From: Roseivirga sp. E12
Lineage (GTDB): Bacteria; Bacteroidota; Bacteroidia; Cytophagales; Cyclobacteriaceae
Assembly (NCBI RefSeq): GCF_017592825.1
Contig: NZ_JAGFMD010000009.1
Span: 145,439 to 209,438, forward strand
Length of the DNA: 64,000 nucleotides
Direction of reading: 5' to 3'
The notes under the pieces are model-generated. The model was given only the letters and a program-made list of their open reading frames with translations, was not told the DNA's origin and did not search any database. This document shows, in pieces, positions 46,078 through 47,903 of this stretch (within the stretch, counting starts at the first letter, position 1; every line of letters starts with the position of its first letter). Position numbers and translations under genes: made by a program.

Positions 46078-47193
46078 ATGGAAAACTTCGTTGTCTCGGC
46101 TAGGAAATACAGACCGGTTGGCTTTGAGGAAGTGGTGGGACAAGAACATATCACCACAACCCTTAAAAACGCCATCGACAACAACCAATTGGCCCAGGCA
46201 CTCTTGTTCTGTGGACCGAGAGGCGTAGGTAAAACTACCTGTGCCCGTATTGTTGCAAGACTCATCAACGAACAGACCATTGAAAACCCTTTAATGGGTA
46301 ACGATACTTTCAATATCTATGAACTGGATGCTGCTTCAAATAACTCGGTGGATGACATCAGAAATTTGATTGAGCAGGTCCGCTACCCTCCTCAACAAGG
46401 AAAATTCAAGGTATATATCATAGATGAGGTGCACATGCTTTCTAATCAGGCCTTCAATGCCTTTTTGAAGACCCTGGAAGAACCACCTTCGTATGCCATC
46501 TTTATTTTGGCCACCACAGAAAAACATAAAGTCATTCCTACAATTCTTTCTCGCTGTCAGATTTTTGATTTCAACAGAATTGAGATCAGGAATATTTCAG
46601 ATCAGTTAAAAATGATCGCTGACAAAGAGGGCATCGAAGTTGAGGATGAGGCATTAAACCTGATTGCTCAAAAGGCGGATGGTGCTATGCGCGATGCTTT
46701 GTCGCTTTTTGACTTGATTGTCACTTTCTCTAAAGGAAAGAAAGTCACTTACAAAGACACCATTGACAACCTCCACATTCTGGATTATGACTATTACTTC
46801 AGAATGACCGAAGCTCTTTTCGGGGAGAATACAACCGACACGCTTTTGATCTTCGATGAGATCTTGAAGAAAGGTTTCGATGGACACAATTTCATTGTAG
46901 GACTGAGTAGTCACTTACGCGATTTGATGGTATGTAAGGACAATGCGACCGTTGAGCTCCTGCAAGTGTCGGATAGTGTTAAGGCCCGCTATACTGAGCA
47001 GGCAAATCAAATCCCACTCTCCTTTCTGCTTACCGCGCTCAATATTGCAAGTCAATGCGACATCAACTACAAAGCCAGTAAGAACCAGCGATTGCATGTA
47101 GAGTTGGCCTTAGTCAAGATGGCCCACCTGAACGCAGCACTTTCGCTAGCCCAAGTGAGCACCAACGGTGACTCATCAAAAAAAAAACTTTAG
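46078..47193 (+). CDS. dnaX: DNA polymerase III gamma-like product (zero-frame DnaX)
   Basis: The zero-frame product is 371 residues: clamp-loader ATPase with FCGPRGVGKTTCARI (Walker A), ELDAASNNSVDDIR, IIDEVHMLS (Walker B), TLEEPPSYAIFILATTE and SRCQIF, then domains II-III. It ends with SSKKKL and a stop, right after the slippery A run at 47178-47187. It loads the sliding clamp together with delta and delta'. The Zn-binding Cys insert normally found after the Walker A helix is missing (only NEQTIENPLMGNDTFN is there). Confidence 0.9.
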   Translation: MENFVVSARKYRPVGFEEVVGQEHITTTLKNAIDNNQLAQALLFCGPRGVGKTTCARIVARLINEQTIENPLMGNDTFNIYELDAASNNSVDDIRNLIEQVRYPPQQGKFKVYIIDEVHMLSNQAFNAFLKTLEEPPSYAIFILATTEKHKVIPTILSRCQIFDFNRIEIRNISDQLKMIADKEGIEVEDEALNLIAQKADGAMRDALSLFDLIVTFSKGKKVTYKDTIDNLHILDYDYYFRMTEALFGENTTDTLLIFDEILKKGFDGHNFIVGLSSHLRDLMVCKDNATVELLQVSDSVKARYTEQANQIPLSFLLTALNIASQCDINYKASKNQRLHVELALVKMAHLNAALSLAQVSTNGDSSKKKL

Positions 47194-47903
47194 CTGAGCC
47201 TAGTCCCGAGCAAGTTAAACCTGAAGTAAAAACAGAAGCACCTCCTGCTCCTGCTCCTGCTCCTGCTCCTGCTCCTGCTCCAAAAAAAGAAGAAGCGCCT
47301 CCACTACCAACCGCTGATGATGAACCTCAACAAGTCGAACCTGAGGTAATAGTAGTTCCTGAAAAAGAACCGGTTGCACCAGTTGTCGAGACGCCTGTCG
47401 CTGACGCCCCTAAAAGGCCTAGCATAAGAAAGTCACCTTCTAAGACCATGGCCGTTCCGACTGACTTGAACGCCCTGAAACAGGAGATTAACAAACCGAA
47501 AGAAGAAGAGAATCAGGAAGAGGAGGATACCGCAGACTTGAGGTCAACGCCTTTCACCCCAGAAGACGTTGAAGCTGCTTGGCAAAGCTTTTTAGCCAAT
47601 GGAAACTTCCAAAATTTGGATCAAGAGCTCTTCAAAAATCCATACTTGCTTGAAGGAAATCAATTGACAGTTTCTATACCTAATGAAGCTTTGGTATCGA
47701 GTTTTGAGAGATTTCGTGGGGAACTGCTTCAGCATTTGAGGAATACGTTGAAAAACGATCACATCTCATTGCATTCAAATGTGGTTGAAATTGCCCAAGA
47801 GAAAATGCTCTATACCGACCGTGAGAAGTTCGAGTTTCTTAAGAATAAGTACCCGGCATTAAAAGACTTACAAGAAAAACTCGGCCTCGACCCTGAGTTC
47901 TAG
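46078..47903 (+). CDS. dnaX: DNA polymerase III tau (DnaX) by -1 frameshift or slippage
   Basis: After the A10 run the -1 frame stays open from 47187 to 47903. Joining both parts gives about 608 residues, a normal DnaX length. The extension has a proline/alanine-rich linker with a hexanucleotide repeat, an acidic stretch, and a C-terminal domain with VEAAWQSFLAN, QLTVSIPNEALVSSFE and FLKNKYPALKDLQEKLGLDPEF, as in Bacteroidota DnaX. A shift is required to make tau; programmed frameshift, transcriptional slippage and a sequencing error (A10 for A11) are all possible. Confidence 0.8.
47178..47187 (+). other. A10 slippery site in dnaX
   Basis: Ten consecutive A preceded by TCATC and followed by CTTTAG, where the zero frame stops four codons later. 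It offers A-AAA-AAA for -1 ribosomal slippage, as in the E. coli dnaX signal, and is also long enough for RNA polymerase slippage as in Thermus dnaX. Confidence 0.75.
47244..47279 (+). repeat. CCTGCT hexanucleotide repeat in dnaX
   Basis: Six tandem copies of CCTGCT encode a Pro-Ala repeat in the linker of the tau extension. It is in frame, so copy changes alter the linker length only. Confidence 0.85.

Follow-up and report, generated by a model that had tools for sequence, protein, structure and literature searches.

The window considered here, a stretch of 64,000 nucleotides from Roseivirga sp. E12 (contig NZ_JAGFMD010000009.1, positions 145,439 to 209,438), carries a dnaX gene that is divided between two reading frames at a run of ten A's (A10). 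The features of the locus, in window coordinates, are:

46078..47193, + strand: dnaX zero-frame ORF, 371 aa, gamma-like, with the AAA+ ATPase, lid and domain III
47178..47187, + strand: A10 run, its first A being the third base of a TCA codon that is followed by AAA AAA AAA
47191..47193, + strand: zero-frame stop TAG, which would end gamma on an mRNA with A10
47195..47197, + strand: third-frame stop TGA, which would close an mRNA with A9 or A12
47187..47903, + strand: -1 frame with the tau linker and C-terminal region, 238 codons (714 nt) plus TAG at 47901-47903
47481..47891, + strand: conserved DnaX C-terminal region, matching positions 471-612 of profile NF011531

The run lies in the context TC-A AAA AAA AAA CTT TAG. 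A single codon (CTT) separates it from the zero-frame stop, where a preliminary description of this DNA had counted four. The third frame stops after three codons, so that both of the frames that do not lead to tau are closed near the run. The same description had recognized a dnaX split at A10 with a 371-residue gamma-like zero-frame product, and a -1 frame open for 714 bp that encodes the DnaX C-terminal domain, and both observations hold. In profile searches the N-terminal part matched TIGR02397 (dnaX_nterm) with 389.5 bits, and the -1-frame part matched the C-terminal end of NF011531 with 63.2 bits; a Pfam search with the 238-aa tail returned no family. Residues 4-347 of the 371-aa product are matched by E. 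coli gamma/tau chains in the PDB, and its extent is about that of the E. coli gamma chain solved there (1jr3, 373 residues). By arithmetic from the coordinates the full tau would have about 608 aa, and joining its two parts requires either an mRNA with A11 or A8 or a -1 shift by the ribosome. The tau linker includes a Pro-Ala stretch encoded by CCTGCT hexamer repeats (window 47240-47282).

The nearest named relatives of this dnaX are from a Roseivirga sp. (91%) and R. pacifica (87%), and annotation of the gene in the named Roseivirga relatives gives a 370-371-aa 'gamma/tau' protein. Two other database proteins, P0023 and P0028, which closely resemble one another and both show 84% identity to the query, differ in length, one being short (394 aa) and the other long (571 aa). 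At the protein level this contrast suggests that close strains differ in the length of the run or in its frame.

Homopolymers are error-prone in sequencing, and the preliminary description had named A11 on re-sequencing as a concern; assembly or sequencing error would then have hidden a single dnaX ORF. That concern is answered by the genus. All 18 dnaX loci recovered there, each from its own genome and with protein identities of 82-100%, carry a run of exactly ten A's in one and the same phase, and in each the zero frame stops one codon further on; their -1 frames are open from the run for 204-240 codons. These loci represent 18 of 19 genomes; the other one (G009, 80% complete) was left out since it gave only a weak match, like those to other AAA+ genes. 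Within the family, at least nine A's (A≥9) were found in 52 of 53 fetched loci, 44 of the 52 being split. The third frame is closed as well, and we regard the error explanation as having a negligible chance of being correct. Sequencing error and pseudogene formation are ruled out for the genus by conservation in the 18 loci, and the split of dnaX at A10 is confirmed as real.

Some annotations treat the C-terminal part as a separate protein, which in the window would begin at the ATG at 47448 and have 151 aa. Orphan proteins of 150-155 aa do exist in the databases, and in Roseivirga sp. 4D4 the dnaX tail is annotated as one of them, a hypothetical protein. However, in the 18 genus loci the frame is already open at the run, well upstream of such a start, and in single-ORF relatives the tail is fused to the N-terminal part, which makes an independent protein very improbable.

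In order to place the run among relatives, 262 dnaX loci were surveyed over an interval of 260 nt after domain III, 235 of them from the class Bacteroidia. The set includes 80 named loci and 22 new loci from 115 order-level genomes with a match, which were the best-scoring rather than a random sample, and even draws of 62 same-class genomes (all fetched) and of 53 new loci from the family, from which G316 and G325 were left out as lying near contig starts. A≥9 is present in 218 of the 235 Bacteroidia loci, with a length of 9 in 16, 10 in 181, 11 in 18, 12 in 2 and 13 in one. In the even same-class draw it is present in 58 of 62, and 44 have A10. A long A run is the norm in the dnaX of this class. 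After thinning at 80% identity A≥9 remains in 90 of 103 loci and is absent from 13; at 70% identity it remains in 31 of 40 and is absent from nine. The larger share of missing runs after thinning indicates that losses weigh more among divergent sequences. The examined interval lacks A≥9 in 17 of the 235 loci. One of these exceptions, L055, has an A10 further downstream in the tail, 1360 nt after the start of the dnaX match, with both alternative frames closed there (after 1 and 4 codons). Outside the class, A9 or A10 was found in eight of 27 loci hand-picked among the matches listed, and in each of these eight the two other frames stop within six codons.

The conservation of run length does not extend to the frame. 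In the 218 Bacteroidia genes with a run, it lies in codon phase 0, 1 or 2 in 26, 78 and 114 genes, respectively. In 93 genes the tau tail continues the zero frame; reaching it takes one additional base in 121 and -1 or +2 nt in four. For two of the 218 (L095 and L113, near contig ends) the assignment of the tau frame is based on 65 and 17 codons. In the even draw the tau frame relative to the DNA is 0 in 31 of the 58 genes with a run, +1 in 26 and -1 in one, so that 31 are single ORFs with the tail in frame and 27 are split. On a tree built with FastTree from the N-terminal proteins, parsimony requires at least 26 changes between the long and the split form, and 25 when Bacteroidia are considered alone. 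In 204 of the 218 genes both other frames stop within nine codons of the run, compared to 29% of upstream and 21% of downstream random control positions, and the same is true of 82 of 90 genes after thinning at 80% identity and 27 of 31 at 70%. The third frame by itself is closed within nine codons in 94%, compared to 39-53% in controls.

The run is also out of proportion to the background of its genome and genes. In the 4.70 Mb genome, both strands counted, there are three A10 runs where about 145 are expected, and 33 matches to A9 where about 434 are expected, under a first-order model built from the window and loci of the same genome. The window alone shows no depletion of A10 (2 found, 2.37 expected from dinucleotide shuffles). 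In the relative G003 the dnaX run is the sole A10 of the genome; in most other genomes of the genus A10 is more frequent, with as many as 21 overlapping matches. Of the other two A10 runs in the Roseivirga sp. E12 genome, one lies at window 15989-15998 in AT-rich, apparently intergenic sequence, and one (L147 1501-1510; C29:176649-176658, - strand) lies inside a 305-aa membrane-protein-like ORF, perhaps LiaF-like, which is open across the run. In the dnaX genes surveyed, A≥9 elsewhere occurs twice in 365,921 bp. Lys-Lys-Lys is present in the linker window of 183 of 235 loci, and at least eight A's are found there in 182 of the 183; elsewhere in the same genes Lys-Lys-Lys is encoded entirely by AAA in just one of 45 cases. 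This codon choice rules out protein-level selection for Lys-Lys-Lys as the cause of the run and indicates that selection acts on the nucleotides. A phase-variable contingency locus is not favoured, since the length mostly stays at 10 and dnaX is an essential gene.

A run whose length is conserved while its frame is not points to slippage by RNA polymerase. The A10 in this dnaX is probably a programmed slippage site, predicted from sequence to give both a short gamma-like and a long tau-like subunit of the clamp loader of DNA replication. The A's would fill the RNA:DNA hybrid and allow the transcript to realign, and RNA polymerase would add or drop A's at the run. Messages with A10, or with A9 or A12, would terminate within a few codons and yield gamma, while those with A11 or A8 would continue for 238 codons and yield tau. 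Slippage of this kind would spread the mRNAs over the frames, so that there would be little constraint on the frame written in the DNA. This would account for the switches between split and single-ORF genes among relatives in which the run is retained. Transcriptional slippage is the best-supported account of the phase-free run length, the closed third frame, the genes that need +2 or -1 nt, and the lack of a preference for a slippery heptamer. For the class as a whole, the comparison tips modestly toward a frame-agnostic decoding of dnaX, in which the run would be kept at about ten A's, matching the RNA:DNA hybrid in length, the DNA frame would drift, and both gamma and tau would be made.

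The preliminary description had also proposed slippage as the source of gamma and tau, and this remains the best-supported reading; the split layout from which it argued is not itself the mark of slippage, since in the parts consulted of the work on Thermus thermophilus the zero frame encodes tau (PMC1088944). Slippage is marked rather by a run whose length is maintained whatever its codon phase, together with closure of the two other frames. Relatives with a continuous frame had been named as grounds for abandoning the idea. About half of the class does have a single frame, but the run is present in these genes too and their two other frames are closed, in keeping with slippage.

One alternative is programmed -1 ribosomal frameshifting, as in E. 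coli, with tau made on A_AAA_AAA and slippage minor or absent. This heptamer is present in the zero frame of the window, and a shift there would yield the same tau. Reversed dnaX genes were placed under ribosomal frameshifting in a later review, as far as the parts consulted show (Atkins et al., 2016; PMC5009743), and in the relatives the -1-of-tau frame closes sooner than the remaining one (median 1 vs. 3 codons). On the other hand, A≥9 is retained whichever of the three codon phases it occupies, there is a nearby stop in the third frame as well, and the four genes that need -1 or +2 nt are out of reach of a -1 shift.

The accessory signals in the window do not follow the E. coli pattern. In that gene, according to the parts consulted of two papers, the zero frame encodes tau and the shift site A_AAA_AAG is accompanied by a Shine-Dalgarno (SD)-like sequence and a stem-loop (PMC3711429; PMC5009743). 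The window resembles it in that one gene is predicted to give gamma and tau; it differs in lacking A_AAA_AAG in frame at the run, which is followed by C, in having no GGAG, GAGG or AGGA in the 16 nt upstream, and in having no strong hairpin in the 60 nt downstream (-5.9 kcal/mol). In the relatives A_AAA_AAG is in frame in 37 of 218 genes, one third of the 112 runs followed by G, which is the chance level. Downstream folding is slightly above that of controls (mean -7.2 vs. -6.6 kcal/mol), with strong folds, below -12 kcal/mol, in 12.4% vs. 8.3%. A heptamer and hairpin of the E. coli type were therefore rejected as the general signal, there being no preference for the one and little excess of the other. 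One family member, L280, has GGAGG followed by an in-frame A_AAA_AAG TAG (A7 plus G) in place of the long run. The site is an apparent replacement of the run by a ribosomal shift site of the E. coli type, and as such it counts in favour of the ribosomal explanation.

SD-like tetramers also count on that side. They occur within 16 nt upstream of the run in 105 of 218 genes, compared to 8.5% and 12.5% in controls, and in 33 of 90 after thinning at 80% identity, and they cluster at -10 to -4. Part of this enrichment is accounted for by the abundance of Glu, Gly and Asp in the linker; Glu codons at the site lean mildly to GAG (odds ratio 1.86, with relatedness ignored and 17 genus loci dropped). 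The enrichment fits a ribosomal stimulator in many relatives, and a ribosomal contribution may be present. The anti-SD of Bacteroidia ribosomes is occluded, which speaks against such a role; SD-dependent frameshifting in prfB is nevertheless found in 523 of 726 Bacteroidia genomes, both according to the parts consulted of one study (PMC8710568), and its efficiency is low in F. johnsoniae, as given in the consulted part of another (PMC12421855). Since this frameshifting is common in the class, ribosomes may pair with SD-like sequences there during elongation.

A family with an altered anti-SD offers a comparison. It is that of genome G113, whose dnaX N-terminal part is 93% identical to that of Chryseobacterium lathyri. 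Sixty genomes were searched; the altered 16S 3' end was found in all 43 with a 16S match and the canonical end in none, the other 17 giving no match. Thirty dnaX loci were examined, 59 genomes having a match to the gene. A≥9 is present in all 30, and both other frames are closed within nine codons in 28, while SD-like tetramers, at five of 30, are rarer than elsewhere. The run thus persists where the SD-like element is mostly missing. The family is a single clade and hence represents one event. The lower frequency of SD-like tetramers in this family hints at a possible role for the element in other clades. Taken together, these findings make -1 ribosomal frameshifting an unlikely main source of tau.

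A combined mechanism, which overlaps with the slippage explanation, is a possibility of lesser but real weight. Slippage would set the base ratio of gamma to tau, and ribosomes sliding on poly-A, aided in some clades by SD-like purines, would tune it. Both the enrichment of SD-like tetramers and their scarcity in the family with an altered anti-SD agree with this, and ribosomes are known to slide on Lys-encoding poly-A, according to the part consulted of PMC4363877. Against it, no such tetramer lies within 16 nt upstream of the run in the window, and the composition of the linker lies behind part of the enrichment.

Polymerase slippage at dnaX has a precedent in Thermus thermophilus, in which, in the parts consulted, an A9 run lies between the shared N-terminal part and the tail, and both non-tau frames are closed nearby (PMC1088944). 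The window shares this layout but differs in that its zero frame encodes gamma (371 aa), its run is A10, and the run lies at about 60% of tau rather than seven-eighths of the way through the gene. The 31 in-frame genes among the 58 of the even draw have the tau arrangement of Thermus.

Split dnaX genes with A10 are a kind already known since 2013. Antonov et al. (2013; PMC3711429), in the parts consulted, described 17 such genes in 12 genera, of which nine have ten A's, and, with Thermus as the model, put forward transcriptional realignment as the mechanism. The window is like these, with a short gamma in the zero frame, tau reached by a -1 shift, and A10. The preliminary description had held the arrangement to be non-standard for Bacteroidota; for the class Bacteroidia this was mistaken, given A≥9 in 58 of 62 loci of the even draw, a split in 27 of the 58, and the earlier publication. 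The consulted parts of Atkins et al. (2016; PMC5009743) state that reversed dnaX seems to be derived from ribosomal frameshifting and is found in 'many fewer bacteria', and that when efficiency is near 50% the frames can exchange roles through a change of one nucleotide. The clusters of Antonov et al. consist of split genes only, and the parts consulted contain no single-ORF genes with A10, no frame switching and no class-wide conservation of the run. In the portion of the open-licence literature that was searched, neither class-wide conservation of the A run nor frame switching in Bacteroidota dnaX was described. What appears to be new here, within that literature, is the class-wide conservation of run length, the repeated switching of frame with closed third frames, and the comparison with an altered anti-SD.

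These findings extend a catalogue of 17 split genes to a class-wide decoding site in which run length, not frame, looks conserved. A prediction from them is that in many Bacteroidia genomes DnaX is annotated in truncated form, with its C-terminal part left as an orphan hypothetical protein, as is seen for Roseivirga. The gene is a directly testable case of a core replication function that would rely on transcriptional infidelity, and the class provides a natural comparison of slippage with ribosomal frameshifting where anti-SD pairing is occluded or altered.

Two other features flank the gene in the window. Just upstream of dnaX is a tmRNA gene (45548-45913, - strand) with the tag peptide GERQYALAA. 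After dnaX, at 47998-48816, there are four direct copies of a 96-nt repeat, three of them at a spacing of 202 nt and 95-100% identical to the first, and the fourth 66% identical.
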